Positions 23,241-57,307 of a stretch of DNA of 64,000 nt are shown piece by piece. Position 1 is the stretch's first letter. Every line of letters begins with the position of its first letter. The stretch is from Trichomonas vaginalis G3 (Eukaryota > Parabasalia > Trichomonadida > Trichomonadidae). A program made the translations under genes and the position numbers. The notes beneath the pieces are model-generated. The model made no database searches, was not told where the DNA came from, and saw only the letters and a list, made by a program, of their open reading frames with translations. The stretch lies in the NCBI RefSeq assembly GCF_026262505.1, contig NC_067204.1, positions 24,025,300 through 24,089,299 of the forward strand, in the 5' to 3' direction.

Positions 23241-23538
23241 AGTAGTATATATTGCGGGTTTTGTGACTTTTTTTGTAAACGTAAGAATTCATACATTTTT
23301 GAGCGATTTTGTATCATTTTTTTTTACATATGAAGTAAAAAATGTATGATTTTTACGGTTTTTATTCTTACGTTTTTGAATAAATCAAGATTTAAAAATT
23401 TTCAGAATCGTAAGAAATTTTCACTAAACCCATACATAATGAAATAAAAAAAATAAAAAAATAAAAAAATAAACTTTAAAAATTCATGTCTTACATTTTT
23501 TGAATAATTTATTTTTTTAATTCGTATGAAAATGAGTG
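23241..23538 (+). repeat. Maverick left terminal inverted repeat
   Basis: About 298 bp, roughly 95% identical to the complement of 44130-44426. It contains its own inner palindrome: AAACGTAAGAAT at 23277 against ATTCTTACGTTT at 23364, and CATACATTTTT at 23290 against its complement near 23338. It also has A/T homopolymer runs near 23440-23480. Its inner edge runs into the first gene, so the start codon and first residues (MKMS) are TIR-encoded. Confidence 0.95.
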
Positions 23539-29789: not shown

Positions 29790-30756
29790 AATGTGAACAA
29801 TTGCGGGCAATTTTTAGCCATTTTGGCTTGGAACTAGAGCCTGCGAGGTACATGGATAGTATCAGTACCTCACAGGCTCTAGTTCTCTATATGGCGCCGA
29901 GAAATTTTGGTGAAATGTGGTCGCATTTCACCAAAATTTTTTCGGCGCCATAGGATGAATTGGAGGGTGAGAATATTATTTCATACAATACTACTCTCAC
30001 CCTCCAATTCCCAGCCAAAATGGCTAAAAATTGCCCGCAATGTGAACAATTGCGGGCAATTTTTAGCCATTTTGGCTTGGAACTAGAGCCTGCGAGGTAC
30101 ATGGATAGTATCAGTACCTCACAGGCTCTAGTTCTCTATATGCGCCGAGAAATTTTGGTGAAATGTGGTCGCATTTCACCAAAATTTTTTCGGCGCCATA
30201 GGATGAATTGGAGGGTGAGAGATATTATTTCATACAATACTACTCTCACCCTCCAATTCCCAGCCAAAATGGCTAAAAATTGCCCGCAATGTGAACAATT
30301 GCGGGCAATTTTTAGCCATTTTGGCTTGGAACTAGAGCCTGCGAGGTACATGGATAGTATCAGTACCTCACAGGCTCTAGTTCTCTATATGGCGCCGAGA
30401 AATTTTGGTGAAATGTGGTCGCATTTCACCAAAATTTTTTCGGCGCCATAGGATGAATTGGAGGGTGAGAGATATTATTTCATACAATACTACTCTCACC
30501 CTCCAATTCCCAGCCAAAATGGCTAAAAATTGCCCGCAATGTGAACAATTGCGGGCAATTTTTAGCCATTTTGGCTTGGAACTAGAGCCTGCGAGGTACA
30601 TGGATAGTATCAGTACCTCACAGGCTCTAGTTCTCTATATGGCGCCGAGAAATTTTGGTGAAATGTGGTCGCATTTCACCAAAATTTTTTCGGCGCCATA
30701 GGATGAATTGGAGGGTGAGAGATATTATTTCATACAATACTACTCTCACCCTCAAT
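29790..30756. repeat. Tandem array, ~3.9 copies of a 249-250 bp unit made of palindromes
   Basis: Units start at about 29792, 30041, 30290 and 30540 and are nearly identical, differing by single-base indels. Each unit is tiled by four inverted repeats: GGAACTAGAGCCTG / CAGGCTCTAGTTC, GGCGCCGAGAAATTTTGGTG / CACCAAAATTTTTTCGGCGCC, GAATTGGAGGGTGAG / CTCACCCTCCAATTC, and ATTGCGGGCAATTTTTAGCC with its complement. The last unit ends inside the third palindrome. Readable frames through it are by-products of the repeat. It fills the intergenic space between the divergent genes at 29630 and 30881. Confidence 0.95.
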
Positions 30757-30809
30757 TTTAATTACTTAAACTCATTCTATTTTTTTGACATGTAAATGTC
30801 ACTTTTACT

Positions 30810-30834
30810 GAGATCTGACACAATGTCAGATCTC
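30810..30834. terminator. Perfect hairpin followed by T-run
   Basis: GAGATCTGACA-CAA-TGTCAGATCTC: an 11-bp stem with a 3-nt loop and then six or more T. It sits 46 bp upstream of the ATG at 30881, so it may be a regulatory hairpin of the array region and not a terminator. Its role in a eukaryotic element is unknown. Confidence 0.5.
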
Positions 30835-30880
30835 TTTTTTTCGTATATAAGATTACCATATTTTTAATCGTAATAAAAAA

Positions 30881-31618
30881 ATGTCAATTATCAATATTAT
30901 TTCGAATAATAACTGTGAATTAAATTTAACAGTTAGCGGAATTTATAATGTTACTCTCGTTTCTGTGAGTGGTAAATTTAATCCCATTCTTTTAAACCCT
31001 TCAGATTATATATCATTTATTAAAGATGACCATGAGCCGCATAGCGGCGGGGTCGTAGACCTAAAAACGTATGATATGTATATAAATAATGTGATAACGA
31101 AATGGGATATTAACATGATTTTAAGTTATTTAAATGAATCATTTATCGTATGGTATGAAGAAAATTTTAAATCAAAACCTGATAAACTTTTTGAACTTGA
31201 TGAAATAAATAACCTTATTAAATTTCCGCTGAAAATTAAATTTTGTACTCCTCGTCTTCGTTCATTGTTGGGGATATTAAATTTTGAAAAAGATGTTGGG
31301 GATGTTTTGTATTCTGACACTGGTTCTAATTTCATTTTAATCAAATGTGATAAAGTTAATACCCCAATGAGATTTTCACATCAAACATTAGACCCTAACT
31401 CTTACCCATCAATACAAAACATTTTATCCATCAACTTAAACATATTTTCTTTATCATATCCGTTTCAATTATCCGGGAATTCATTTATTCTTCATTCAAA
31501 AGATTTATCAAATATTAAATTTAGAGTAACTGACCTATTTGATTGTGATTTAGAATTTATGAATGAAATATTATGGCAATTTCAAATAGAAAAAATAGCT
31601 GATGAGATAACAGATTAA
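30881..31618 (+). CDS. Maverick protein, candidate penton/minor capsid
   Basis: 245 residues starting MSIINIISNNNCELN, strand-rich throughout. The C-terminal half has FILIKCDKVNTPMRF (~147-161), SINLNIFSLSYPFQ (~184-197) and LSNIKFRVTDLFDCDLEF (~210-227), a layout that recalls Polinton/virophage penton proteins (single jelly roll). A GC-rich palindromic module lies inside the frame at 31035-31061 and encodes EPHSGGVVDLKT. Intact. Assignment is tentative. Confidence 0.55.
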   Translation: MSIINIISNNNCELNLTVSGIYNVTLVSVSGKFNPILLNPSDYISFIKDDHEPHSGGVVDLKTYDMYINNVITKWDINMILSYLNESFIVWYEENFKSKPDKLFELDEINNLIKFPLKIKFCTPRLRSLLGILNFEKDVGDVLYSDTGSNFILIKCDKVNTPMRFSHQTLDPNSYPSIQNILSINLNIFSLSYPFQLSGNSFILHSKDLSNIKFRVTDLFDCDLEFMNEILWQFQIEKIADEITD

Positions 31619-31642
31619 ATATTTATTTTTAAATCGTAATAA

Positions 31643-32404
31643 ATGATTAAACAACAGCAACCACAGACCATTACATACGCCACATATGCATATAATTCAA
31701 AGACGGCAGAACAAACGCAAAGGTTGAAATATGGAGATTTGGAGATAGTATTGAAAAATGACCATTTTGAATTCGTTTGCAAAGGTGGTGCAGTGATATC
31801 AAATATAAAAGAAATTTTATTTATGAATTCAAAAATTAAAGGTATAACGGATGATATAACATCAATTCCACCAGAAGAACAAAGATATTACGCATTAAAT
31901 GCATTTCCTAAAGTTTTAAAGATTGGAAGATTTAATTTAAATGAGGAATTCATAAAAGGTTTCCTAAATGACATAATGAAGAAAGCAGATATATCATTTG
32001 TTAACGATGAGTTAGCAAAGAAGGCAGATATATCATTTGTTAACGATGAGTTAGCAAAGAAAGCAGATAAGGAATATGTTAACGATGAGTTAGCAAAGAA
32101 AGCAGATATATCATTTGTTAACGATGAGTTAGCAAAGAAGGCAGATAAGGAATATGTTAACGATGAGTTAGCAAAGAAGGCAGATAAGGAATATGTTAAC
32201 GATGAGTTAGCAAAGAAAGCAGATATATCATTTGTTAACGATGAGTTAGCAAAGAAGGCAGATAAGGAATATGTTAACGATGAGTTAGCAAAGAAAGCAG
32301 ATATATCATTTGTTAACGAAATATACCAAAGTTTAGTTGGAACAAAAAATATTGAAACTATTGTTGGCGACTTTTCTGTCAATGAAGAAAAACAAATATT
32401 TTAG
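31643..32404 (+). CDS. Maverick fibre protein, N-terminal part and repeat shaft
   Basis: 253 codons starting MIKQQQPQTITYATYAY. Residues ~1-110 form a head region. ~113-235 is a shaft of eight full and one partial 14-residue repeats in two variants, KADISFVNDELAKK and KADKEYVNDELAKK, in the order A A B A B B A B A. Such two-heptad repeats are typical of trimeric coiled-coil tail fibres. The frame shifts by one near 32390 (A- and T-rich codons), after which the protein continues in another frame to the tip at 33340. TAAATG start context. Presumably a virion attachment protein. Confidence 0.75.
   Translation: MIKQQQPQTITYATYAYNSKTAEQTQRLKYGDLEIVLKNDHFEFVCKGGAVISNIKEILFMNSKIKGITDDITSIPPEEQRYYALNAFPKVLKIGRFNLNEEFIKGFLNDIMKKADISFVNDELAKKADISFVNDELAKKADKEYVNDELAKKADISFVNDELAKKADKEYVNDELAKKADKEYVNDELAKKADISFVNDELAKKADKEYVNDELAKKADISFVNEIYQSLVGTKNIETIVGDFSVNEEKQIF
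31981..32318 (+). repeat. 42-bp tandem repeat encoding the fibre shaft
   Basis: Eight consecutive 42-bp units plus a partial one, nearly identical except for the variable triplets (ATATCATTT versus AAGGAATAT). Near-identity at silent positions indicates recent slippage or recombination changing the shaft length. Confidence 0.92.
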
Positions 32405-33340
32405 ATGGGAGTTTGTACAGTCCTTAAGAAATGGTATACGGTATAAACTCATTCCGAAAAATAACAATGAAATGTATGTAGGCTATATAAAGAATAATGG
32501 CACACAAGTTAAAGTTCCATTAGACAACAACTGCTACTTAAACTTATATGGAGACGAACAAAAGAAATATTTAAGAGTTTATGAAATGACAGATATGACA
32601 GATATGACATTGTCTAACGTAGCTCCAGCACCGTATTATTATGACTATGGTGTTGACGCACATGTAGACCCAAAAAAGCAAACATTATATTTAGAATATT
32701 ATAGATATAAAAGATATAATGCAATAGAAAAAACGAGAATAGTATACTATTATGAAGATGACAAAATAAATATTATAGTCAAGATTTTACATACCCTGAA
32801 AACATAAGATTATATTATAAAAAATATTCTGACACAAACCAGAAGAAACCCGAAATAGTTACACTATATTTTAAGTTCAAAAGAGACAATCCTATAATAT
32901 CTCATATGTTTGATTTAATGAACCCAGTAGGTTCTATTTATACATCTATGGATGTGAGAGGTCCTCAAGCAATGTTTGGTGTTGGTGCATGGGAACAAAT
33001 AGTCGACAGGTTTTTGTATTGTGCAAACTCTTCAAAGGAAACAGGGGGAAGTAAAACGATTACAGGTGAAAATTTACCTGCACACAGTCACTACATAGAT
33101 TTAAGCACATCTCAAGCAGGTTGGCATAAGCATAGATATTGGGATTGGTCAGGAATGACAAAAGGTAAAGGATATGATGTTAAAGATGATGTTAAATTTG
33201 CCATAAATTGTTACTGGAGTGACACTCAGGGAGAAGGAAACCATACACATCGCGTTTCAGGATATACACAAACAACGGGACAAAGTAAAGATTACATGCC
33301 ACCATTTATGACTGTATTCGCATGGTATAGAGTTCAATGA
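32405..33340 (+). pseudogene. Fibre protein, C-terminal part with phage tail-collar-like tip
   Basis: Continues the fibre in two frames: RWEFVQSLRNGIRYKLI onward to the stop at 32807, then, after a shift near 32765, the frame ending at 33340. The last ~145 residues begin NPVGSIYTSMDVRGP and AMFGVGAWEQIVDRFLYC. They carry three His-x-His-type motifs (LPAHSH, WHKH, NHTH) and end MPPFMTVFAWYRVQ. This is the architecture of bacteriophage tail-collar / short-fibre / gp10 C-terminal domains, where the histidines bind metal. The frame changes mean this copy would not make a full fibre. Confidence 0.78.
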
Positions 33341-33418
33341 ACGCTCAATGTTTGTGAAACAAACTTTAGGAGCTCCAAAAGAGCAAACGACATAATTTAA
33401 ATTTTTATTTTAGTATAA

Positions 33419-33571
33419 ATGAAGATTCTACCATATGGTGTTATTGGAAGAGATAAAGATGGAAACCCAATATTTGATCCAAAGTTAAAATTCAAGTTAC
33501 TGACAAGACAACAACTTGAAAAGTTGCTGAAACCAAAACAGGATGAGAAAATGAGAAAGAAAAAAATTTAA
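33419..33571 (+). CDS. 50-residue Maverick peptide, TR-x-x-x-x-K family
   Basis: Starts MKILPYGVIGRDKDG and ends RKKKI. Contains LLTRQQLEKLLK, similar to LLTKDEVNKMMIK in the next gene and IITREEMIKMMQ in the small gene at 37345. Its ATG has the strong shared context TTTTTATTTTAGTATAAATG. Basic, probably helical C-terminus. Function unknown; possible small virion or DNA-binding peptide. Confidence 0.6.
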   Translation: MKILPYGVIGRDKDGNPIFDPKLKFKLLTRQQLEKLLKPKQDEKMRKKKI

Positions 33572-33597
33572 ATTATGTAATTTTATTTTTATCATAA

Positions 33598-33780
33598 ATG
33601 ACAAAATTAATTAAGCCAACTATTTCTAAATTAATGTTACCAATGAAATCATTTCGTGGAGTACTTATCCCAGGTTCTTCACAATTAGCCAGGGTAAGTG
33701 TTGGGACTCAAGGTGGAACATTAGTGAATCCATTCAAATTATTAACTAAAGATGAAGTTAATAAAATGATGATAAAATAA
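33598..33780 (+). CDS. 60-residue Maverick peptide, same small family
   Basis: Starts MTKLIKPTISKLMLP and ends LLTKDEVNKMMIK. It shares the C-terminal helix motif and the start context (TTTTTATCATAAATG) with the small genes at 33419 and 37345. Last rightward gene before the two halves of the element converge. Confidence 0.6.
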   Translation: MTKLIKPTISKLMLPMKSFRGVLIPGSSQLARVSVGTQGGTLVNPFKLLTKDEVNKMMIK

Positions 33781-34096
33781 CTGATAACAAAATTTTATTT
33801 CACTACTACCATAAAAACAGGTGAAAAAACAGGCGAGATCTCACCTCTTCACCTCAACATTATATCATTTCCACGAGAGAAAAGATTCCTCATTCGCTAA
33901 GGATTCCAAAAATGAAAAAATCATTGATTTCGGCTGAGAAAAAACAGCAAAACCCTTCTTCCACGGGAACAAAGAAATAAAGAAGAAATAAAGAAGAAAT
34001 AAAGTAAATTTTTTATTTATTCCCGTGGAAGATAGAGCACTTTTATGACACTTTTTATTCACGACAAACAAGACAAACAAAGAAAATAAGAAAATA
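33781..34096. other. Non-coding convergence zone with stem-loops
   Basis: A hairpin-like GGTGA...TCACC region at about 33821-33853 follows the last rightward gene and could serve 3'-end formation. A 12-bp inverted pair CTTCCACGGGAA (33958) / TTCCCGTGGAAG (34020) encloses three copies of AAGAAATAA. No gene. Confidence 0.6.
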
Positions 34097-34097
34097 C

Positions 34098-34170
34098 GGC
34101 GCTGTCGCGGTTCGAACCACAGACCTTGACCCCTCCATAACACCACCTTAGACCACTGTGCTACGTAGCC
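34098..34170 (-). tRNA. Degenerate tRNA-like sequence (probable pseudogene)
   Basis: On the minus strand it carries an A box TAGCACAGTGGTC and a B box GGTTCGAACC at tRNA spacing, followed by a T-rich tail. Its translation (VAQWSK...GLWFEPR) is the kind typically produced by reading a tRNA gene as protein. The acceptor, T and anticodon stems do not pair well in my reading, so I do not assign an anticodon and favour a pseudogene or a Pol III promoter relic. Confidence 0.45.
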
Positions 34171-34220
34171 TGTCGACATAAGATTTTATAAATTGCATAT
34201 TTGACGTAAATTTATTTCCC

Positions 34221-34460
34221 AGTTATTCAAAAATAATTAATTAATTATTGAAGAACTGAAGGTGCTACCATGTTACCATGTTGACAACAGCCGCTAAGCG
34301 GCGAGACCTGAAGGTCTTGACATTTTGACAACAGTTCAGGAGGAAGGTAGTTATGAATTATTTTTGAATAACCGAAGGTGCTACCATGCTACCATGTGCT
34401 ACCAGGTCATTTAACTTCTCTGAAAAAATGTGACAACATGACATTTTGACAACACAGCAG
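34221..34460. repeat. Inverted repeat flanking the primase-helicase, distal copy
   Basis: Roughly 240 bp whose complement reappears at 36941-37290. It contains GGTGCTACCATGTTACCATG, TGTGACAACATGACATTTTG and a palindromic core GCCGCTAAGCGGC with AGACCTGAAGGTCT (34290-34317). It lies just beyond the 3' end of the helicase gene. Confidence 0.85.
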
Positions 34461-34501
34461 GATTAATGCAAAAATAAATTCCAATCATACTTTATAAAGC
34501 T

Positions 34502-34567
34502 AGACCTTCAGGTCTCGCCGCTTCGGTCTGAAAGACCTTCAGGACTCAAAGAGTCCGTTAGCGGCTC
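34502..34567. repeat. GC-rich palindromic module at the helicase C-terminus
   Basis: An outer stem GCCGC / GCGGC (34517-34565) encloses two hairpins, GGTCT-GAA-AGACC and GGACTC-AAA-GAGTCC, and a further hairpin AGACCT-TC-AGGTCT lies beside it. On the coding strand it specifies the last residues TDSLSPEGLSDRSGET of the helicase. A 48/49-identical copy lies in the polymerase gene (42182-42230). Confidence 0.9.
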
Positions 34568-36082
34568 ATTTACAGGTATTTCATCGTCAGTAAATGAATC
34601 CTCATTATCGTTTGGTTCAACCTGTTTATATAATCCTTTCATTTCTTCTTTCAAAACATAACACCATGTTTGTTTACCGTCTATTCTTCTATGTTTCCTA
34701 TCACATTTATCCTTAATACTCATTTGAAAGTTTTTGTCTTTCATGTCTGATGGTTTGCAGAATAGAGCATTTTCACACGTCATACCTGCACACAATTCAT
34801 CATAATGTGTATTTATCCATACATCTAAAGGATTTGATGATAATTCAATTAAATCTTGTTTGGCTTCAGTCATCGGTATGATTCGTACATTAAATGATGA
34901 AAGGTCGTAATTGATAAAATACGTCAGTAAATTATCATAAAATTCCTTTGTGCATGAATCCATCAAATTCTTGAAGTAATCAAATTGACCCTTGAATTTA
35001 CCATTAACTCTTAAAACTACGTATCTTCTGTCTCCAACTTCAATTTTGACAGGGTAGACGTTGTTAGTTACGAAAATGAAGTTTGCAACATTCTGAGCAG
35101 TTCTTCTGGGTTGATTCTTTTCATTAATTCTAATCTCATTATCCGTTATAATTGATTTCAAAGCGTTGAAGTTTGCGAGTCTATCTTCACCTACATTCTT
35201 GAGTTCATTAAGTACAAGAAACATTTTATTTTCAACAACTGAGTTGAAATTACCCGTTAACTCACTTATTTCAGTAATGTTTTTACATGAATAACCAGCG
35301 AGAAGTTCAGAAATAATGTCAGTAAATCTGTTTTTACCTGTTCCCTGAAGTCCTTTCAAAATAATTGCTGTTTCATTCTTGATTCCTGGATGTTGAATCA
35401 TTGATGCAATCCAGCCGAGTATGTATTTATACACTTCATCGTTATTATCACAAATGGCTTCTTTAATGAAATTCATAAACATCTCAATTTTTGAGTAATC
35501 AGGCTTTTCAAGAATGTTGTATTTATAACCATGAAACGTTGAGAAAACATCTGGAGAATCAGATTTAAAGCAAACACCCTTAACGGTTAATGAGGATAAT
35601 TGATTTAGTAGTACATCCCATGCTGTTATTGTTTTACCTTCTTCTTTAAATAATTTAATCATTTTGAGTGACTCTTTCATGTTTGATTGAAGAACAAATG
35701 ATATTTGATTCATTTTGTCGTGTATGTTGTAATCTTTCTGAATGAAATATTTATTTCCACAATCTACAAAACGGATTACACGTGATAAATCCTCAATTAC
35801 TTCAGAACTGTTTTTATACTGATGATTTTCAGCCTTGCGTCTAATATCTGTTATCAAGAATGAATCATCAAGTTTTATATCAAATGTTATTTTTGGCTTA
35901 CGTAATAAAGGTAAAACATATTCATCATAATATTCCTTTTGATATAGTTTTAGAATCTTCACCAAAACAAATGGAGAAGTCATTAAATGTGCATATCTAC
36001 TACGTGCTTTTTCAAAATTACTTTTTGCATTTTCAGTTAAATTGCAGAAGTTATAAACGTTATCGTATGCTTCATTAATCAA
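34508..36082 (-). CDS. SF3/D5-type helicase, Maverick replication protein
   Basis: 524 codons. Walker A is LKGLQGTGKNRF (~243-254), Walker B-like region NKMFLVLNELKN (~289-300), sensor block VANFIFVTNNVYPVKI (~330-345), and arginine-finger-type DRRYVVLRV (~348), the order of D5-like superfamily 3 helicases with a D5_N-type region before. The first in-frame codon of this piece is TTG, but the frame is open further back to 36127, where it meets the primase frame at an A8 run. Primase and helicase were therefore probably one protein (36867 to 34508). The C-terminal 16 residues come from the palindromic module. Confidence 0.85.
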   Translation of the reverse strand: MINEAYDNVYNFCNLTENAKSNFEKARSRYAHLMTSPFVLVKILKLYQKEYYDEYVLPLLRKPKITFDIKLDDSFLITDIRRKAENHQYKNSSEVIEDLSRVIRFVDCGNKYFIQKDYNIHDKMNQISFVLQSNMKESLKMIKLFKEEGKTITAWDVLLNQLSSLTVKGVCFKSDSPDVFSTFHGYKYNILEKPDYSKIEMFMNFIKEAICDNNDEVYKYILGWIASMIQHPGIKNETAIILKGLQGTGKNRFTDIISELLAGYSCKNITEISELTGNFNSVVENKMFLVLNELKNVGEDRLANFNALKSIITDNEIRINEKNQPRRTAQNVANFIFVTNNVYPVKIEVGDRRYVVLRVNGKFKGQFDYFKNLMDSCTKEFYDNLLTYFINYDLSSFNVRIIPMTEAKQDLIELSSNPLDVWINTHYDELCAGMTCENALFCKPSDMKDKNFQMSIKDKCDRKHRRIDGKQTWCYVLKEEMKGLYKQVEPNDNEDSFTDDEIPVNEPLTDSLSPEGLSDRSGET

Positions 36083-36126
36083 ATGATTAGGTAACGAATT
36101 AATAGCTTGAAACAGTGTGAATAATG

Positions 36127-36867
36127 TTATTTTTTTTCTAAATTCATGTTTCCACCGTCATTATGTACTTCAAAATCACAGATGCCATCAACTATGCTCT
36201 GGGCAAGTTTATCGTCAATGTTTACATCTTTGTTTTCATTCATGATAGTCTTTATTTCTTCATTCTTCTGTTCAACTCTTACCTTAATATTCAAATCATT
36301 TAATATATCATTCACTGTTCTGGTTAATGTTGAATCATAACTTCCACGAATGAATGAGTATGTTTTGATTGGTTCTGTTGCATTCTTGCGAACTCTTGAA
36401 TCAGCCATAACCACTAATGAACGCTTTGAATCATCCATAGAAGTCATTATGTCAATATCATAATCATTGCAGGAATAACATTTAATCATTCTGTTCGAGG
36501 TTGAATAGAAGAAATTAGTGTTGCAATAAATGTGAAGACCTCCTGAAGCGGTTTTAACGATAATATCTTTATCCGAAAGTTTTGATAAAATGTCTTTTCT
36601 AACTGTTTCTTTAAGTTCATCATTGTACGATTTATTGATATCAACATCTATAATCGTTAAATTTGAAATTTTATTTACTAATAAAGCCATACCAGTTTTC
36701 CTTCCTCTTCCTCCATCGTGTTTGAGGTAGTTATGTAAATCAATCTTGTTTTCACCAATTCTTTCGTTGAGGGTTTTAGTTTCTGCCACAACTAATTCCT
36801 CAGCTAATGAATCAATGATATTTTCATCAGAAACGATATAGTTGTTGCTGTTGTTTGTTGCTGTCAT
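36127..36867 (-). CDS. Archaeo-eukaryotic primase domain (N-terminal part of primase-helicase)
   Basis: 246 residues starting MTATNNSNNYIVSDE. It has the AEP/prim-pol motifs: LTIIDVDINK (motif I, D-x-D, ~70-79), TASGGLHIYCN (motif II, s-x-H, ~105-115) and a later YDIDIM (motif III acidic, ~133-138). It ends NLEKK-stop exactly at a run of eight A; slipping one base back there enters the open helicase frame. It would make primers or initiate copying of the linear element. Divergent from the small gene at 37345 across the repeated region 36941-37290. ATAAATG start context. Confidence 0.82.
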   Translation of the reverse strand: MTATNNSNNYIVSDENIIDSLAEELVVAETKTLNERIGENKIDLHNYLKHDGGRGRKTGMALLVNKISNLTIIDVDINKSYNDELKETVRKDILSKLSDKDIIVKTASGGLHIYCNTNFFYSTSNRMIKCYSCNDYDIDIMTSMDDSKRSLVVMADSRVRKNATEPIKTYSFIRGSYDSTLTRTVNDILNDLNIKVRVEQKNEEIKTIMNENKDVNIDDKLAQSIVDGICDFEVHNDGGNMNLEKK

Positions 36868-36940
36868 TTATATAGGAATAAAAAAATAAAAATAATTTTA
36901 AAACTAACTTTATTTTTGGACTGCATCATATTTTCGTAAA

Positions 36941-37290
36941 TGTTGTCAAAATGTCATGTTGTCACATTTTTTCATAGAAGTTAAATGACCTGGTAGCACA
37001 TGGTAACATGGTAGCACCTTCAGTTCTTCAAAAATAATTCATAACTGCCATCCTCCTGTGTTGTTGTCAAAATGTCATGTTGTCACATTTTTTCATAGAA
37101 GTTAAATGACCTGGTAGCACATGGTAACATGGTAGCACCTTCAGTTCTTCAAAAATAATTCATAACTGCCATCCTCCTGTGTTGTTGTCAAAATGTCAAG
37201 ACCTTCAGGTCTCGCCGCTTAGCGGCTGTTGTCAACATGGTAACATGGTAGCACCTTCAGTTCTTCAAAAATAATTAATTATTGAATAAC
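36941..37290. repeat. Inverted repeat flanking the primase-helicase, proximal copy with internal tandem duplication
   Basis: Complementary to 34221-34460. Contains two ~119-bp tandem copies (TGTTGTCAAAATGTCATG ... GCCATCCTCCTGTG) and then a partial third carrying the palindromic core at 37199-37226. It occupies the divergent promoter space between the primase gene and the small gene at 37345. Confidence 0.87.
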
Positions 37291-37344
37291 CTAAAAACCA
37301 TTAACGATAAAATAAGTGATAACAAATTTTTATTTTTATCATAA

Positions 37345-37509
37345 ATGAATACCCCACAAGCTCAAAATTTACCACGAATCATAACAAGGGAGGAAATGAT
37401 AAAAATGATGCAAGAACATGTTAAAAATAACAAACCACTAAAATTGAGAAAATGTGGTTATGCAGTAATGATGGAAAGAGAGATGTTGTCGAAGAGGAAT
37501 AAAAATTAA
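37345..37509 (+). CDS. 54-residue Maverick peptide, TR-x-x-x-x-K family
   Basis: Starts MNTPQAQNLPRIITREEM and ends SKRNKN. IITREEMIKMMQ aligns with the helix motif of the peptides at 33419 and 33598, and its start context TTTTTATCATAAATG is the same. It is the only rightward gene in the right half. Its TAA shares TTAA (37506-37509) with the stop of the convergent 90-residue gene. Confidence 0.58.
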   Translation: MNTPQAQNLPRIITREEMIKMMQEHVKNNKPLKLRKCGYAVMMEREMLSKRNKN

Positions 37510-37778
37510 ATTTGGATAGAGTTTAAAAATTCATCTTTATTAAATTCATCTCTTCCAATCAATTTATTTATTCTATTAAATTCTTTTATTTTTGCTTCAC
37601 TCAGTTTAAGGATTGAACGATAAGTTTCTAATTTTTCGATTATTTCTTTCCTCTCTTTATCGTTTTCAACCCCACCACATTGTGGCTTCTTTTTGTAATA
37701 ACATATTTTTGATTTAATTCTGTTTAGTTTCTTTTTATATTCATTGTCTGGACTCTTGGATGCTTCGTTGTCACTCAT
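37506..37778 (-). CDS. Small charged Maverick protein
   Basis: 90 residues starting MSDNEASKSPDNEYKKK. Highly charged and helical (ERKEIIEKLETYRSILKLSEAKIKEF, ~43-68). Two cysteine-bearing spots (KICYYKKKPQCGG). No family recognised. It lies directly upstream, in the leftward sense downstream, of the integrase. Confidence 0.6.
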   Translation of the reverse strand: MSDNEASKSPDNEYKKKLNRIKSKICYYKKKPQCGGVENDKERKEIIEKLETYRSILKLSEAKIKEFNRINKLIGRDEFNKDEFLNSIQI

Positions 37779-37797
37779 TTCTTACGAAATAAAAAAA

Positions 37798-38690
37798 TTA
37801 AATATTATTTAAATATAATGGAGTAATAAAATAAATCGGAATTTCTATTAATTTATTGTCAACTTCAACTAATGCATTGCCGTTAATATATCTAACAAAT
37901 TCAGCTATTGTGTCAAATCTTCGTCTTCTTTTTGTCATTGATTTATCAGTTTTTCCATAATCGAGATGAATCAAAACTTTATCCCCTTGTTTAAAATTCA
38001 TGAGCCCCGAATTAATTTGTTCACGTTTAACATCATTCAACCTTTCCATTTGCTTTCTAATATATTCCCATTCTTTTGAAATATCATTTTTCATTTCCAC
38101 CGGTTTCATGTTTATTGTTCTATGCCATGTATTATTGTAATAATATACTAACTGCTGTATGATGGAGTCATGATTTCCATCCCAGTATATCTGACCATTA
38201 ACCCCTAACGCATCTCTAAGAGTTCTCATTACCGCATCAACTATTTTATTATGAAACGTATATGGAGAGGATGAAAAGTAAAAATTAATTTGTGGGAAAT
38301 AATGAGCCATAGCTGCCTGAAATCCTTTATCACCATCACCCCTTATATTATCTACTCTTTCATGATCTAGTAAGTATTGAATAGCTCTTCTTGTTTCCTG
38401 TTCTGTTTTCCCTTTCACCGGAATGCAATATAAATATCTGGTGTTAATGTTAATGGCAAATAAATAAGTAACGTTTCCTCTTGAATATTCTAAATGATCG
38501 ATTTCGTATGAATATGGATATGGTGCAAATGAAGGGCGACTAAATTTTTCCTTTAACGGTTGAATTTTTGGGTCAGTTGGTTTATTTAATATTTTGAAAT
38601 CCTTTTTAAAATCTTTTTGCTTCTTTAATGTTTGAAATGGATATAATAAAGTGAATGATGAAGGATTAACTGAAGAGGAGGAGGTACTGT
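37798..38690 (-). CDS. Retroviral-type integrase, catalytic and C-terminal part
   Basis: The frame is open from about 38690. First catalytic Asp is in YSYEIDHLEY (~38525); then GNVTYLFAININTRYLY, the second Asp in IRGDGDKGF, and SSSPYTFHNKIVDAVMRTLRDALG, where Asp stands where retroviral-type integrases have Glu. The C-terminal region FKQGDKVLIHLDYGK ... ALVEVDNKLIEIPIYFI is an SH3/chromo-like barrel. In Mavericks this integrase inserts the element with a 6-bp duplication. Only a GTG lies near 38418; the true start is in the upstream piece, joined by one frameshift near 38680. Confidence 0.83.
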
Positions 38691-39325
38691 CGTTGGAGGT
38701 TTGGTGTTGCAGGTGGTTTAATTTTATCTGCTTTGATTTTGGATTTCATTCCCCCCTTCATTAATTCTGGATGTATTCTATTCATTTGTTTTAAATATGC
38801 TGTATATAAAGGTTTGATATACTTTCCCGCTTCGAGTTTATGTTGAAGGATGAATTCCAAAAGTTGATCTTCATTTAAAAGTCGGGCTGAATATGGTTTA
38901 ACTAATGAATCATAAATTAAAGCTTGTGCTTCATTTATGGTCTGAAGGACCTGGGCGTTTTGCACCTTTTGTTTTTGTTCCTTTGGTTTTTGCGGCTCAG
39001 GATTATATAATTTATATAATTTATATAATTCATCAATATCTTCTTCTGTTAATACTTTATTTTTGAAATCTTTCAATTGTTTAAGTTGTGATTTACTTTT
39101 TCCCTTTGAATATTCATTATTTTTAATTTTGTCTTTAATTTTAGAAATTATTTTATCATGATATTTCAAAACTTCATTTTTATAATACGAATAATAATAA
39201 TCCATATCATCACCCGTTATATTGTTATCATGTTTTTGGAGATATGATTTTAATTCATAATAATTAAGAAAATTTTGATTAAGTACTAAATCATCAATTA
39301 AATTTTTTAAATCTACGCTATTCAT
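38666..39325 (-). CDS. Integrase N-terminal region (frameshifted from the catalytic part)
   Basis: 219 residues starting MNSVDLKNLIDDLV. Lysine-rich and helical (~1-130), then a basic linker (GGMKSKIKADKIKPPATPN) that overlaps the first open codons of the integrase core in another frame. The core has no start of its own, and the Ser/Thr-rich junction lies in the overlap, so I read these as one gene of ~510 codons broken by a single indel near 38680. The alternative is an independent small gene. ATAAATG start context. Confidence 0.6.
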   Translation of the reverse strand: MNSVDLKNLIDDLVLNQNFLNYYELKSYLQKHDNNITGDDMDYYYSYYKNEVLKYHDKIISKIKDKIKNNEYSKGKSKSQLKQLKDFKNKVLTEEDIDELYKLYKLYNPEPQKPKEQKQKVQNAQVLQTINEAQALIYDSLVKPYSARLLNEDQLLEFILQHKLEAGKYIKPLYTAYLKQMNRIHPELMKGGMKSKIKADKIKPPATPNLQRQYLLLFS

Positions 39326-39426
39326 TTATATAAAAATAAAATAATGTTTTAAGGGTGCCCGCCTCTTTGAATCATAGTATCAAAACCATTATTTACGGTT
39401 CCTTTTGTCTCTTCTGTGGCATTTTA
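39326..39426. other. Short region after the polymerase stop
   Basis: Directly after two consecutive TAA stops of the polymerase, its frame reopens for 24 codons (NATEETKGTVNN...RGGHP) to a stop at 39349. This may be a former C-terminus cut off by stops, or chance. Confidence 0.4.
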
Positions 39427-40311
39427 TTAAATAAATGGCATACAACATCCATTTTCACAACATACAGCCTTAGTGTGTGCTCCTGTTAATGCAGTCTTAC
39501 CGATTGTTAAGCGAGTCATTGACCCGTTTTTAAGTTGTAAATTAATATTCTGACCATCAAATATCACTTTATCATTTATTATATCCAAATAATTTTTAGG
39601 TGTTAATTGTTTATTTTGTCGTAAACTAACTCCTTTCATTTTTTGTGCAATCTTTTTAAAATCACTTCCATCAATTGAACCGTTGAATGAAGTATAACAC
39701 TTAGGACATAAAGCAACCATGTTATCACCTTGTTTCTCAATTGCTAAACCCAATAACTTCTTCTCATGTGCTTTTTCTTCAGCTTTATTCTTTAATTTAG
39801 GTTTAAATTTCTCATTAAAACAGAAGAAATCAAAAGGTGCGAATTTGTAAATGTTTTTATCATAAAATTTTTTATCGGTTACAATTGCTTGAAATGCTTG
39901 AGTGTTAGGAAGATTTGGGTCGCCAGCGATTGCCCAATAAGATGAATCAGTATCACCTTCAATGAAATGAAAACGATTAACATCCATGCATTTATACATA
40001 AAATCATAAATGAAAACCAAATACCAGTATTTTGCGTTATCTAAAGTGAAGAATGCCTCTTGTAAACATGTATCACATCTATAAAATCTATCTTTAAGCA
40101 TCACTTGATACGTATCCTCTCCTATTTCTCTTATGTTTTTAAACTTATTTGACATACATGCAACGCGTGCCTTCTGTGCATTCATTATTTTAGTCTTTGC
40201 GTAATTTTGTGTATTCATTGCATCGTAACCATATGATCCATTAAGTGAAATCTTGCAAAATAAACTTTTTCCTTTATTTCCTTCTAATTCAGCCTTTTGT
40301 CTTTCGTTCAT
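39427..40311 (-). CDS. Family B DNA polymerase, C-terminal catalytic part
   Basis: 294 codons from MNERQKAELEGNKG. Polymerase motif B is CKISLNGSYGYDA (KxxxNxxYG) and motif C is FIEGDTDSSYW (DTDS). Cysteine pairs CPKC (~206) and CCENGCC near the end suggest a zinc-binding tail. It overlaps the upstream piece in another frame; two small indels (A-run near 40345 and TTT near 40312) separate it from motif A. In Polintons this enzyme is protein-primed and copies the linear element. Confidence 0.88.
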   Translation of the reverse strand: MNERQKAELEGNKGKSLFCKISLNGSYGYDAMNTQNYAKTKIMNAQKARVACMSNKFKNIREIGEDTYQVMLKDRFYRCDTCLQEAFFTLDNAKYWYLVFIYDFMYKCMDVNRFHFIEGDTDSSYWAIAGDPNLPNTQAFQAIVTDKKFYDKNIYKFAPFDFFCFNEKFKPKLKNKAEEKAHEKKLLGLAIEKQGDNMVALCPKCYTSFNGSIDGSDFKKIAQKMKGVSLRQNKQLTPKNYLDIINDKVIFDGQNINLQLKNGSMTRLTIGKTALTGAHTKAVCCENGCCMPFI

Positions 40312-42967
40312 AAATTGTTCGCAAATTCATTAAAACAAGTTTTTTCGTAAATGTTAAAATTGATTGAATGTCATCAATGATAAAATGAAATCTGTCTATT
40401 AGATACCAAAGATAATAAGAAGAAAATGGTTGATATTGGTTGTGTGTTGATGCTAACTGAGTTAATTTCCTCTGTTTCTGGTCAACTGGTAGATTGTTTG
40501 ATTTCATGTAATTATACATAAAACCACCAATTGTTTTTTCATCTGTGATAATATCAAAGTTTCTTATTATTGGTAAAAAGTTTATGTAATCATTAATGTA
40601 TTTTTCATCAATGTGACCCTTTACTTCAGCCACGAATAAAGTATTTTTCTTCTTAATTATTCCCAGTGCTTTTGCTTTCTTTGTTGCTGTATCACAAATG
40701 ATAACACCATTCAATCTTCCCGGCATATACATTTTATGGTCAGTATATTGAATGAAATCATGAGGATTAGATGAAAATGATGAAGGATATAATGAATTAA
40801 AGTCAACACCAACGAAATGAGTCATAATGTTGGAAGTGTCCTCATTTGATACAGTTTTAGTTTCTGGATTATATGAAAGTTTATTAATGTGCGTGATTCC
40901 TTTAAGATTTACTCTATGTTGAACATTTGATAAACCACCAGTAATTCCATTACGGAGGATGTGATAAGCTTCAACTGAATCTAGAGTCATTGGTAAATTA
41001 TTTTTTAATGTATAATTTCTTAAATTGATTCTTAAACGTTGAACATCTTCATCTTTATTTGATTTTACGACATTGCAATAACAACACATTAACTGACAAT
41101 TTTCTTTGGTATGTGGTTTTTCATTATCGATTCTATCTAATGTTGGTTTATTAGCATATGTAAACGCTTTACCACACATTTTGCATTTAGATGAAAGGAT
41201 TAAATCGTGATAGTATTGATAGTCATCCATTGAAACATTGTTTTTAGTATCCCTTTCTGCTTTTTCATCTTGTTTCTTATATGAATCAATTTTATATTTC
41301 CAATACTTTTTTGTTAATTCAAAACTTGATTCCACATTTTCTTCTTCTGGATATGTTTCGTTAGGATTGAAGTTCTTATATGCTAACGCGTAACGAATCA
41401 TTGATGCATTCGATGATAAAGAAAGATTATGAAGCATGTCAATTTTATAAACAAATGTTTCTTCAATAATTTTATCAATTGGGTCAATCATAATTTCAAC
41501 GTCTTTATTGCAATAATGAATAAAATATTCTAATCTATTCTCAAAATTTTTAGCATCATTGAGATATATTTGATAATCTGAATCGGATATTGTTTCTTGA
41601 GTTAATGCTGAATAAAATGAATCTTGAGTGAATGGTTCCACTTTATATAATTCATCTTCGTAATTCTCCCATGTGATGAATTGATAAGGGAAAAAGGATT
41701 TAACACGTGATTTATTGTTTCCGAAATCTTGAGTGAATTGGTCTAATGTTCCACCCGCTATATAATTTCTGATGTCAATAAATCTTAATTCATATGGACA
41801 GTTTGTTTTCTTTACAATGATTTGCTTAAATTGAGAAGAAGAACCCAGCATTGATTTTATTTTCCATTTTGCAGTGTTTAAATCACGAAGAATTAAATTT
41901 AAATCAAACTTTCCCGAATTAAAACCTATGATATTCACTTTATTGAATTCCTCATCTAGAAGTTCTTTAAATGCTTCCTTCTGTTTTTCATTTAATGTAT
42001 GGGACAAAGTCCCCGCCGTTTGGTCCGTTTGCGGCTTCATTAATTCTTCATATTGTTCAATATTTGATTTAGCAACTAATGAACAGGTTGAAAATAAAAA
42101 TTCAATCCAATCAGAGATGAACGAATCACTTGATGTTAAGCAAAAATTCCTCGTAAATGTTTTATCACGGTCTACGACCTCGCCGCTTCGGTCTGAAAGA
42201 CCTTCAGGACTCAAAGAGTCCGTTTGCGGCTTTATTTTGACAGTTGATGATACCATAAATGGTTTTAAGTAAGCGTTCAAAGTTGCACATTCAGAAAGTT
42301 GAAGTTCTTCTTTAGTCTCTAATGTTTCGAAGTCAAAAGTAATATAATATCTTGTTGGTTTATAATATTCCTGCAAATTATGTGCTAATAGCCATTGATA
42401 TATCTTCTGTTTCGTGATATGTGGTGCATATGGTTGTTGTGTGTTTTGCAATTGAACGTCTTGAATTAATCTTCCATTATTTTCTTTACATTTCTCACAA
42501 TGTTTTAAAAATCTTCTTTGGTTTTTCCTTTCTGGGTCATCACGGATAGAATATACTTCTTCTTTGCAAAAGGGGCAAACTTTATATCCTGTGAGTGCTT
42601 CAACGTCTGTAATTCTGTCAGCGTGAAGTTTTCCACATGGACTCTGTGTTAATAAAATATTTACTGTTTCAAATTCTGGATCTATCATTATTGATTCCAC
42701 TAATGGAAAGTCTACCTTATTTATGTCTACGTCTTCTGGTTGAGGGTCACAATAATAAAAATCAATATTAACGTTTAACATTCTTGCTAACCTCTCACTT
42801 TCTGATGAAATGTCAAATCCTTCATATGCATCTATGGCTTCATTTAAATAACTTCTACGAGTTTTAGGATTAACACCATCAGGAATGTTATAGAAGCGTT
42901 TAAATAACCTTCTACCTTCGGCTCTTATTTGATTATCATTCATTTTAGCTGTTCCGTTTTTGTTCAT
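40289..42967 (-). CDS. Family B DNA polymerase, exonuclease and motif A part, with HNH-like insert
   Basis: 892 codons starting MNKNGTAKMNDNQIRAE. Order: N-terminal region with a CxxC pair (VCPFCKEE ... KHCEKCK); exonuclease motifs FDFETLE (~222), IGFNSGKFDLNLI (~342) and YCNKDVEIM (~470); an HNH-like zinc unit SSKCKMCGKAF ... LDRIDNEKPHTKENC ... CCYCN (~590-645); motif A VGVDFNSLYPSS (~723). Two short GC-rich palindromic modules are inside the frame (42001-42035 and 42182-42230). The frame then leaves the polymerase near 40345, and motifs B and C are in the next piece. ATAAATG start context. Confidence 0.9.
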   Translation of the reverse strand: MNKNGTAKMNDNQIRAEGRRLFKRFYNIPDGVNPKTRRSYLNEAIDAYEGFDISSESERLARMLNVNIDFYYCDPQPEDVDINKVDFPLVESIMIDPEFETVNILLTQSPCGKLHADRITDVEALTGYKVCPFCKEEVYSIRDDPERKNQRRFLKHCEKCKENNGRLIQDVQLQNTQQPYAPHITKQKIYQWLLAHNLQEYYKPTRYYITFDFETLETKEELQLSECATLNAYLKPFMVSSTVKIKPQTDSLSPEGLSDRSGEVVDRDKTFTRNFCLTSSDSFISDWIEFLFSTCSLVAKSNIEQYEELMKPQTDQTAGTLSHTLNEKQKEAFKELLDEEFNKVNIIGFNSGKFDLNLILRDLNTAKWKIKSMLGSSSQFKQIIVKKTNCPYELRFIDIRNYIAGGTLDQFTQDFGNNKSRVKSFFPYQFITWENYEDELYKVEPFTQDSFYSALTQETISDSDYQIYLNDAKNFENRLEYFIHYCNKDVEIMIDPIDKIIEETFVYKIDMLHNLSLSSNASMIRYALAYKNFNPNETYPEEENVESSFELTKKYWKYKIDSYKKQDEKAERDTKNNVSMDDYQYYHDLILSSKCKMCGKAFTYANKPTLDRIDNEKPHTKENCQLMCCYCNVVKSNKDEDVQRLRINLRNYTLKNNLPMTLDSVEAYHILRNGITGGLSNVQHRVNLKGITHINKLSYNPETKTVSNEDTSNIMTHFVGVDFNSLYPSSFSSNPHDFIQYTDHKMYMPGRLNGVIICDTATKKAKALGIIKKKNTLFVAEVKGHIDEKYINDYINFLPIIRNFDIITDEKTIGGFMYNYMKSNNLPVDQKQRKLTQLASTHNQYQPFSSYYLWYLIDRFHFIIDDIQSILTFTKKLVLMNLRTIYERKTKG
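42182..42230. repeat. GC-rich palindromic module inside the polymerase gene
   Basis: 48 of 49 bases match 34517-34565 in the helicase gene. Outer stem GCCGC/GCGGC, inner hairpins GGTCT-GAA-AGACC and GGACTC-AAA-GAGTCC. It encodes TDSLSPEGLSDRSGE in frame between the exonuclease motifs, with adjoining GGTCGTAGACC. Confidence 0.92.
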
Positions 42968-43031
42968 TTATGTAAGAATAAAAAATTAAAAAATAAATAA
43001 AAATAAAGTTTATTTTTTTTAAAGTCCAGGG

Positions 43032-43764
43032 CTAAAGTCCATAAAATGAATTAAGAACACATAAATTTTTATCATCTGCGACGTGACGAATACATTTTAA
43101 TTTACTCAAGAATGCGTACCCTGATACATTAAATCTAATTCCTGTCTTATTTAATTTCACAACTTTGAAAAGGAATGTATGAATAGCTATAAAATGATGA
43201 GATGATGTTTTATGGGTTGCTTCCATTTTTTCTGAAATAAATGAATAAATATAATGTTTATAAGTTTTCATATCTTTTATATTCTTAATAACGAATGGTA
43301 TAGACCTTTCAACTTCGTCTTCCTTCGGTGCTGTTCTTTCATATGAAACATTATTAGTATCTTCAATAATGAAACCACAATCGCATAAAATTTTATATGT
43401 ACCAATTGTTTCTTTTGATATTTTATCTAACAAATCAAAAACTTTATCAACACCTGTACATTTATTTAAATAATAATTTGTGTAAATATCATGGTCTTCT
43501 TTCTTAATCGTATTTGTTGCATATGTTACATTTTTCAGTGCTTTTTTGAATTTTTCAGAATCAAGAGGAGGTGAAAGTAATATACATGGATAATCTCCAT
43601 CGTCAATAAATTGTAACTTATGTTTATGAATAAATTTGTACCTTCTTCTGAAAGTGTTTCATCTATTTCACCATCTAATAAATTTTTGTTGATTCTGAGA
43701 CATAATTTTTATATCTTTCTTCATGAGATTTTTGAACTGCTGATTCTGAAGCTGGGATATTCAT
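43032..43764 (-). pseudogene. Maverick gene of unknown function, frameshifted
   Basis: Begins MNIPASESAVQKSHEERY at the ATG 43764, changes frame near 43680 and 43635, and then runs open to the stop at 43032 (YPCILLSPPLDSEKFKKAL ... SSHHFIAIHTFLFKVVKLNKTGIRF ... NLCVLNSFYGL). The total is ~240 codons. I recognise no family. A cysteine protease is expected in Mavericks, but I see no convincing His/Asp/Cys arrangement here. Confidence 0.5.
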
Positions 43765-44141: not shown

Positions 44142-44426
44142 ACAAATTAAAAAATAAATTATTCAAAAATGTAAGACATGAATTTTTAAAGTTTATTTTT
44201 TTATTTTTTTTAATTTTTTTATTTCATTATGTATGGGTTTAGTGTAAATGTCTTACAATTTTGAAAATTTTTTAAATCTTGATTTATTCAAAAACGTAAG
44301 AATAAAAACCGTAAGAATCATACATTTTTTACTTCATATGTTAAAAAAAATGATACAAAATCACTCGATATTGTATGAATTCTTACGTTTACAAAAAAAG
44401 TCACAAAACCCGCAATATATACTACT
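44130..44426 (-). repeat. Maverick right terminal inverted repeat
   Basis: Inverted partner of 23241-23538 with scattered mismatches and run-length differences, ending CCCGCAATATATACTACT. Confidence 0.95.
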
Positions 44427-56083: not shown

Positions 56084-57307
56084 ATGTCATTCATCAGAGT
56101 AAGTACAATGAATTGCGAAGCATCTGCAAATACTACATTGATTCATATAATGCATTGTATCTGCTAAAAACGGAAAATGAAGAAGAATTAATCTCAATTT
56201 ACAAAAAGATTAAAACAGAATTGATTGATTCAAAGAAACATCTTCCAATAAATACCATGGTACATATTTTAGGAATCATCCAGTTTAATAGCCGCTATGC
56301 GAAGTCATATTTAACTCTTGCCATATAACAAAGAAAGATTCATATATTTCAAGTTTGATAAAAACTTGATAGCAATATTAATTTATATTTTATGGAAGGA
56401 TGTTCACTACTTGAATTATGTTGTTACCATGGAGCAGTTGATTGTTTCAAGTTATTAAGATCTAAATTTAACTCAGAAATAACTAAAGAATGTATTGGAT
56501 TATCATTTTTAGGAGGAAATTCAGAAATCATGAGCGAATTATTGAAATATCAAACATCAGATGAAGAATGTATGGAATATGCAATTATTTCACACTACAT
56601 TGATTTTGTCACATTCTTGATGAATGAATACAATATAGAGATCGATTTAAAATATTTTCCCATCATGTGTCGGAAATTGAATTTCATTCAATTTCCGACA
56701 CATGATGAAATACTTGAAAAATTTTCAATTTTTAGCCTCTTTTAAATTGAATGCAATTCAATTTTTGAGGCGACTCATTGAAAATCCGTCAAGTATTCCA
56801 AAATATAATAATCTTGAATCTTTTTTAGTTTATTTCGCGCAAACTAATGATATTAACAAATGTTTTGTTTATTCAACAATGTTTGGAATGTCATCTCTTT
56901 GTGAATCTTTCCTTTCACTTGGTGTAAATATCAATGCAAAAGAGGAAAATGGAATGACAGCTCTTCATGTTGCAACACTTACTGATCAAAAATGAATCAT
57001 TCAGTATTATATCTCACATGGGGCAAATATTAATGAAATAAATAATGAGAGGCAAACTGCTCTTCATTGTGCCACTGTCGGAACTTTATCAGAAATAGTT
57101 GAGCTTCTTATTTCACATGGTGCAAATATAAATGTAAAAGATTAATATAAAAAGACTGCTCTTCAATATGCAGTAGTAAATGATAATCATAAAATATATG
57201 ATTTTCTATGAAAGCTTGGTGCAGAAACAAGTGCAAATGATAAAGATGGGAAAACAGCACTTAATATACTCATAGATAACAGTGGATTATTCGACCAATT
57301 ATATTAG
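56084..57307 (+). pseudogene. DUF3447/ankyrin gene, decayed
   Basis: Follows the family from a damaged start (ATGTCATTCATC at 56084; the usual MSEQDIH region has lost a few bases) through IDSYNALYLLKTENEEELISIYKKIKTELIDSKKHLP, then a deletion of ~100 residues at ~56328-56391, LLELCCYHGAVDCFKLLRSKF, an inserted palindromic element (56656-56799), NNLESFLVYFAQTND and ankyrin repeats with stop codons at about 56993, 57142 and 57209. It cannot make a family-type protein. It begins the tandem cluster of four. Confidence 0.88.
56656..56799. mobile_element. 144-bp palindromic insertion with 7-bp duplication
   Basis: It interrupts the ankyrin pseudogene at codons that are continuous in the paralogues (DLKY|NNLESF). 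The flanks are duplicated: AAAATAT at 56649-56655 and 56800-56806. Removing the insert and one copy restores the family sequence in frame. It consists of two foldbacks: a near-perfect 20-bp stem around CATCATGTGTCGGAAATTGA, and a longer imperfect one (56708-56797). A small foldback/MITE-like element, no coding capacity. Confidence 0.82.

Follow-up and report, generated by a model that had tools for sequence, protein, structure and literature searches.

Ultra-short double-hairpin units with precise filled and empty sites in Maverick genes of Trichomonas vaginalis

Palindromic repeats that lie in frame in unrelated genes and encode a conserved peptide are known from the Rickettsia palindromic elements (RPEs), bacterial elements that measure ~150 bp (PMC10969869). 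A similar behavior is found in a 64-kb stretch of Trichomonas vaginalis G3 (NC_067204.1, positions 24,025,300 to 24,089,299; the whole stretch is hereafter called the window), where a Maverick/Polinton, a eukaryotic virus-like transposon, carries GC-rich double hairpins of 27–64 nt. These units are present or absent with precise edges, the same unit or core recurs at unrelated sites in unrelated genes, units are nested in each other, and their lengths within open reading frames (ORFs) preserve the frame. They are likely to be mobile and to form a family of extremely short double hairpins, located mainly on Mavericks, for which single-stranded DNA was probably the route of movement. A single assembly of 180.85 Mb (86 contigs), with the window on contig C2, supplied all of the DNA evidence.

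The first-pass annotation of this DNA had likened a module in the polymerase and helicase genes to bacterial palindromic elements. The likeness holds for behavior, because the units are read in the same phase in unrelated genes (in-frame insertion was encountered in the polymerase, the candidate penton, a 706-aa ORF, and an 86-aa ORF, and in the helicase at its extreme end), but it does not extend to membership: the Trichomonas units differ in being far shorter, nested, and hosted by a eukaryotic virus-like transposon, and the searches made of prokaryote, viral, phage, and plasmid collections returned no match. Specifically, 32 nt of the core had no match in a prokaryote genome collection by exact matching, a search whose range stops short of remote RPE kinship; a 19-nt core fragment had none in IMG/VR, and a distant search with a 63-nt unit found none among phage and plasmid records. 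A polymerase query against viral contigs returned one pattern stretch and no relative.

Short GC-rich palindromes with presence/absence polymorphism occur also in the AT-rich mitochondrial DNA of yeasts, whose GC clusters (GC42) arise by merging and shuffling of smaller units and show a putative AG target duplication (PMC4478555). The Trichomonas units share with GC clusters that they are short, GC-rich, polymorphic, and merging, whereas they differ from these organellar elements by being nuclear, by their in-frame position in coding genes, and by insertion without duplication in the case of units that consist of the two basic hairpins. The same kind of likeness exists with double-hairpin elements of fungi. 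The contigs that bear the units are 20–40 Mb long and thus unlike an organelle genome. The hairpin elements of sponge mitochondria (RHE), a few of which reside inside protein genes without a frameshift, are likewise organellar, and a nested core is unmentioned for them in the available portion of PMC2800124. In searches of the open-licence PMC literature, none of the listings named an earlier description of such modules for the Mavericks of Trichomonas.

Double-hairpin units and their core

The 49-nt module described earlier at 34517–34565 and 42182–42230 indeed differs by only one mismatch between the two locations and encodes the peptide TDSLSPEGLSDRSGE in the same phase of the helicase and polymerase ORFs. 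It is part of longer units of 64 nt (34502–34565) and 63 nt (42168–42230); its cloverleaf shape applies to the 49 bp and not to the whole unit, which also takes in an adjoining hairpin. The earlier list of modules was incomplete in that a further unit at 42000–42035 was overlooked, whereas the other entries are borne out: the shorter relative in the candidate penton gene is a 27-nt unit (31036–31062) that is read in the same phase (EPHSGGVVDL), and the copies at 37199–37226 and 34290–34317 are identical units of 28 nt.

When read against the coding direction of polymerase and helicase, the units comprise a hairpin A (4–6 bp), a spacer of 1–3 nt, and a hairpin B (GCCGC/GCGGC or a variant), whose loop optionally holds a core. 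The basic, uncored unit has a length of 27–28 nt and consists of two adjoining hairpins with loops of 2–4 nt. The core (CGGTCTGAAAGACCTTCAGGACTCAAAGAGTCCG plus TT; 36 nt) is itself made up of two hairpins, and the cored module reaches 63–64 nt. When nine sequences were folded as RNA (default ViennaRNA parameters), the cored units among them adopted the A + B + core structure. The core is open in three of its six frames, and the TDSLSPEGLSDR frame reads it in the polymerase, the helicase, the 706-aa ORF, and the 86-aa ORF.

The A hairpins vary in sequence (GGTCtacGACC, AGACCttcaGGTCT, GGGCttcGCCC, GGGACaaaGTCCC, GAGCCCaacGGGCTC, and others), while the pairing is preserved. Among 12 hand-listed units with eight distinct left arms in A and seven in B, 116 of 117 positions are paired on arms that were registered by hand, although the full pairing is partly due to selection because some of the units came from hairpin searches. 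Re-pairing the A arms across units of equal arm length yielded a mean of 41.7 pairs out of 56, compared to the 56 observed. The B stems next to the core, in units that were found via the core and not via pairing, show compensated changes (GCCGC/GCGGC, GTCGC/GCGAC, and ACCGC/GCGGT); that of one further context (F; see below) contains a G-T pair.

Neither the adjacent-hairpin units nor the core is a product of chance. Three adjacent GC-rich hairpin pairs (uncored) are present in the 21 kb of the Maverick and none in the other 43 kb of the window, whereas Markov resampling (100 resamples of the Maverick and 30 of the remaining sequence) gave a mean of 0.0; the pair criteria were fixed after the units had been seen. 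The 34-nt core occurs at 222 places in the genome with at most three mismatches, whereas a reversed-pattern control occurs at none.

Filled and empty sites

The earlier proposal that the modules are mobile is strengthened by the finding of empty alleles for both polymerase and helicase, which means that the peptide is not a constant part of these proteins, and by the presence of filled copies elsewhere in the genome. Clean insertion is apparent from empty alleles of polymerase, helicase, penton, and the 706-aa ORF, with insert edges that are exact to the base. In the counts per site given below, 100 places were listed per pattern in contig order, which is not a random sample.

At polymerase site 1 (42168–42230, plus strand; the coding strand is minus), the 63-nt unit consists of the A hairpin GGTCtacGACC, the spacer TC, and a B hairpin (GCCGC/GCGGC) that encloses the 36-nt core (42189–42224, plus strand); the genome contains empty, +27, and +63 alleles. 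Among 20 copies that were picked across length classes from the best 80 of 1658 places matching the homologue P0002, a query without an insert here, 17 are empty, two (L091 and L092) have a 27-nt uncored unit, and one is cored. The 63-nt unit is present in the window and in 25 other copies, which were chosen because they bear the core and include a few with single-base losses. Almost all polymerase homologues (34 of 35) span the site, and 33 are without the insert, P0025 being longer by a few residues. In P0001, a protein from another source with 81% identity, a different insert occupies site 1 (residues ~255–285); it resembles the core in opposite orientation (SGLKETV versus SGLKESV), a lead at the protein level only. 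In the cored unit of L095, the sequence of the A hairpin (GGTCGTAGACC) takes the place of the inner hairpin.

Polymerase site 2 (42000–42035, plus strand) is occupied by the A hairpin GGGACaaaGTCCC followed by a B hairpin whose core is trimmed, which represents the +30 state in an allelic ladder of 0, +21, +30, and +57 nt. The 100 places listed for the short states (of 289) include 18 empty, 80 +21 (some short by one or two bases), and two trimmed alleles; those listed for the long states (of 226) include 84 +30 alleles, some with losses, and 16 +57 alleles. One copy (L087) shows an additional in-frame loss of 21 nt. A scan of P0001–P0155 for the module peptide detected it only in P0002, at site 2. 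The sequence TGGGACT may be the original empty allele of this site, but the unpaired GGGAC and homologues that are ~2 residues shorter make it look more remnant-like. Upstream of the polymerase ORF (43021–43040, plus strand), 21 of 26 copies have no extra palindrome. A 16-nt palindrome is present in L007 and, with losses, in L029, whereas L021 and L060 share a different one of the same length; L004 has a direct duplication of 8 nt.

The 64-nt unit at the C-terminus of the helicase (34502–34565, plus strand) is a 28-nt unit with the 36-nt core at 34524–34559, for which both empty and 28-nt alleles exist. The 28 nt of this unit are not divisible by three, but it is located at the extreme end of the ORF and brings its own stop codon (TGA). 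None of the 34 homologues that reach the C-terminus carries the module (35 of the 120 listed were aligned; P0036 ends with NEAL), and the 100 places listed of 554 matching the short-state pattern are either empty (92) or contain the 28-nt unit (8). With at most two mismatches, the 28-nt unit occurs at 113 places in the genome; the 18 stretches that were fetched represent the helicase site (16, one of them also with the intergenic site) and a third site (2).

The unit is exact at the helicase and in an intergenic repeat, and is present at the third site in a two-mismatch form. The intergenic unit at 37199–37226 (plus strand) interrupts a sequence whose empty versions are the 121-nt repeats at 36941–37061 and 37062–37182. 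Its partner at 34290–34317 (minus strand) lies in the other arm of a 237-nt inverted repeat (34244–34480 and 37036–37272) that brackets the primase-helicase region; because each arm holds one unit, they probably stem from a single insertion that was duplicated. At the third site, a near-identical unit of 28 nt lies between GAAAATTCA and TGAGGG in L115 and L116 (29 nt in L061), whereas GAAAATTCA is directly followed by CGAGGG in the empty counterparts L031 and L034.

The unit of the candidate penton ORF (31036–31062) has its A-B orientation on the minus strand, with the coding strand being plus, and adds PHSGGVVDL to the protein. Eighteen of the 100 places listed (of 404) are filled with 27 nt (two of them being variants) and 82 are without the unit, some of which differ in length by 1–3 nt. 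The homologues P0156, P0158, P0159, and P0160 do not have the unit; P0157, P0161, and P0162 are too divergent at this position to judge. In the 706-aa ORF, represented by a 3-kb locus (L009), 89 of the 100 places listed (of 214 with the flank pattern) are empty with one and the same sequence, and 11, of which three are variants, contain a 27-nt uncored unit; the cored form (+63) is represented by 40 of 80 core copies. A second insert of the same ORF, a double hairpin of 33 nt, is missing in three of 39 aligned copies, and L062 differs there.

Inserts within ORFs measure 27 nt at polymerase site 1 and in the penton, 27 and 33 nt in the 706-aa ORF, and 21, 30, or 57 nt at polymerase site 2, with 36 nt added by the core. 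Outside ORFs or at their ends, inserts with known empties are 28 nt long at the helicase end and in the intergenic repeat, and 16 nt (two different palindromes) upstream of the polymerase; they measure 28–29 nt at the third site, which may be coding or non-coding. We infer that selection on the host genes allows copies with in-frame lengths to survive, although the units may also have a built-in mechanism that maintains the frame.

That structure is kept while stem sequences change would be expected also of RNA or DNA signals that serve the Maverick in packaging, termination, or replication and are kept by selection rather than being selfish. We regard such a role as unlikely, given that 82–92 of the 100 listed places at helicase, penton, and 706-aa ORF are without the unit, that the positions vary between genes, and that the units have no match in Rfam; a search of 30800–42600 yielded a single match, which is at chance level (E 0.6) and lies outside the units. 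An assembly artefact has next to no probability: sequence errors or decay are suggested by the loss of single bases in a number of copies, but exact edges recur at hundreds of places across several large contigs, and the empty state is also seen in homologues that come from other data.

Unrelated contexts and the host element

Among the copies examined, the core occurs in seven contexts (polymerase sites 1 and 2, helicase, 706-aa ORF, 86-aa ORF, and two designated D and F), which leave out two of the 100 listed exact core places (of 222), both outside the polymerase list. At five of them (both polymerase sites, helicase, 706-aa ORF, and 86-aa ORF), there is an uncored counterpart that is exactly 36 nt shorter. 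Contexts D and F adjoin Maverick genes (matches to window positions 32712–34234), whereas L009 matches the 64-kb window at the module copies only (blastn, E 1e-6).

These contexts bear on whether a single ancestral insertion could have given rise to all modules through nothing but recombination or gene conversion among Maverick copies. The states at the two polymerase sites are found in several combinations, which indicates that Maverick copies recombine, but homologous exchange cannot reach unrelated genes in loci that share no DNA similarity, which makes this explanation very unlikely. The 706-aa ORF of L009 matches no family in Pfam or PHROGs, and its interpretation as the fibre gene of a Maverick was withdrawn for this reason.

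Among six control stretches of 6 kb at round coordinates, four (24 kb) are without units. The other two (L121 and L123) contain two uncored 86-aa-ORF units each and have no blastn match to the Maverick of the window; since L123 encodes a Pox_A32-type ATPase and an rve integrase, both above the Pfam cut-offs, we read them as a putative second Maverick lineage. In L121, a segment of 1776 nt is present as an inverted duplicate with 99.8% identity.

The Maverick of the window (23241–44426, no strand assigned) is delimited at both ends by terminal inverted repeats of 162 nt with 96% identity (23241–23402 and 44265–44426). Its genes match polymerase homologues and a DUF5906/VapE-like helicase, with a Pox_A32 match just below the cut-off. 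The copy looks degraded, as its polymerase is split into two ORFs of 892 and 294 aa (at 40289–40311); the primase-helicase is also split into two ORFs (34508–36867), whereas each of the homologues, P0001 (1168 aa) and P0036 (770 aa), is one uninterrupted protein. A tandem array at 29790–30757 (250-nt period, 3.9 copies) holds 65-nt palindromes with perfect stems of 29 bp. Outside the Maverick, a perfect hairpin with a 22-bp stem is located at 56661–56707.

Routes of movement and implications

No target duplication accompanies the basic units at polymerase site 1 and at the helicase, intergenic, penton, and 706-aa-ORF sites, whereas a TT duplication is conceivable for the core but ambiguous within a T run; the edges of the 33-nt insert are ambiguous by 1–2 nt. 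Target duplications of 2–7 nt at single sites were considered and dropped because they are inconsistent between sites. The right flank is T at each of the five sites with exact empties (the 27-nt site in the case of the 706-aa ORF), and C or T at the third site of the 28-nt unit. The insertion point lies between A and T at polymerase site 1 (where some empties differ by a base), in the intergenic repeat, at the 27-nt site of the 706-aa ORF, and probably at polymerase site 2.

A unit of 27–28 nt would insert precisely, without target duplication and mostly to the left of a T, and the core, a second unit of 34–36 nt, would build the 63–64-nt module by settling in the loop of hairpin B. The units may move as hairpins on single-stranded DNA, with an enzyme that would act in trans rather than being encoded by the unit. 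Mavericks are replicated by a protein-primed polymerase, and strand displacement during this process should expose single strands, which would explain why the units were found on Mavericks and not in the 24 kb of unit-free controls or the 43 kb of window flanks.

Several known systems share aspects of this scheme. Bacterial REP/BIME and IS200/IS605-type elements are paired hairpins without target duplication that are mobilized in trans by Y1 transposases; the Trichomonas units are also hairpins inserted without duplication, but differ in that a Y1 transposase domain was not found in the genome. Non-autonomous Helitrons insert without duplication, often between A and T, and have the ends TC...CTRR. 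The units share the insertion without duplication, which falls between A and T at only some of their sites, and a Rep-like domain is present in the Trichomonas genome, but they are far shorter, and a hairpin forms their very end. Miniature inverted-repeat transposable elements (MITEs) differ by target-site duplications, which are lacking at the five sites with exact empties. Among enzyme classes, we regard single-strand nicking-and-joining (HUH) proteins as the likeliest, with the Helitron-like Rep genes of the genome as one candidate. Helitron_like_N domains were matched five times (C4:20041336, C4:20203745, C2:12208090, C4:30684930, and C4:30700797), once in a frame of 1791 aa.

A close rival is template switching by the protein-primed, strand-displacing polymerase of the Maverick, which would both make and move the hairpins without a transposase when a 3' end, once displaced, folds back on itself or copies a hairpin at another location. 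The polymerase of phi29 is protein-primed, too, and the chimeras formed in phi29-type amplification are reportedly mostly inverted. That such amplification forms chimeras (PMC1855051) counts in favor of this route, as do the lack of a target duplication, the preserved pairing of stems that differ in sequence, the A-hairpin sequence within the inner hairpin of L095, the two kinds of 16-nt palindrome at one and the same site ahead of the polymerase ORF, and the hairpin arm GGGAC that is already present in the empty allele of polymerase site 2. However, identical units of 28 and 36 nt have the same two ends at unrelated sites; this implies that the ends are defined, contrary to what template switching would lead one to expect, and the core takes the same loop position at five sites. 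We consider template switching possible, but clearly below an even chance.

Other observations weigh against a mobile double-hairpin family. Movement itself is unseen, and the evidence consists of alleles. Loss of the core by slippage between the flanking TT repeats could yield the same five pairs of cored and uncored sites, which leaves the direction unproven at single sites, although copying of the core to unrelated genes would still be required. The empty allele of polymerase site 2 retains TGGGAC, half of the A hairpin, and may be a deletion product, and the location of L009 within a Maverick is presumed. The target is loose, with T on both sides at the penton and in most helicase copies and A and G or similar at the 33-nt insert, which has G on its right. 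The B stem of context D is mismatched, and contexts D and F have no long ORF in the peptide frame (the frames through the core are short there, with another frame being the longer one in D); some copies have single-base losses in ORFs. Y1 transposase (PF01797) had zero matches in the genome in a search whose control was positive in five of 14 cases, and the units examined end with GCGGC, GCGAC, GCGTC, or GCGGT and not with the TC/CTRR ends of Helitrons.

A more specific version of the mobile-family interpretation, which we hold tentatively and at slightly less than even weight, is that the units are parasites of Mavericks: hairpins of ~27 nt that would transpose on single-stranded intermediates, target the loops of earlier units, and remain frame-neutral in essential genes by virtue of their length (27 nt, plus 36 nt for the core) and a frame that is open on one strand. 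If this is true, eukaryotic nuclei would have an equivalent of RPEs, and few known mobile DNA units would be as small. Mobile palindromes that lie in frame are otherwise known from bacteria and, in rare cases, mitochondria. The hundreds of Maverick gene copies in empty, unit-bearing, cored, and trimmed states make edges, targets, order, and rates readable and the mechanism testable, and the units provide a ready supply of new peptide segments for viral-type genes.

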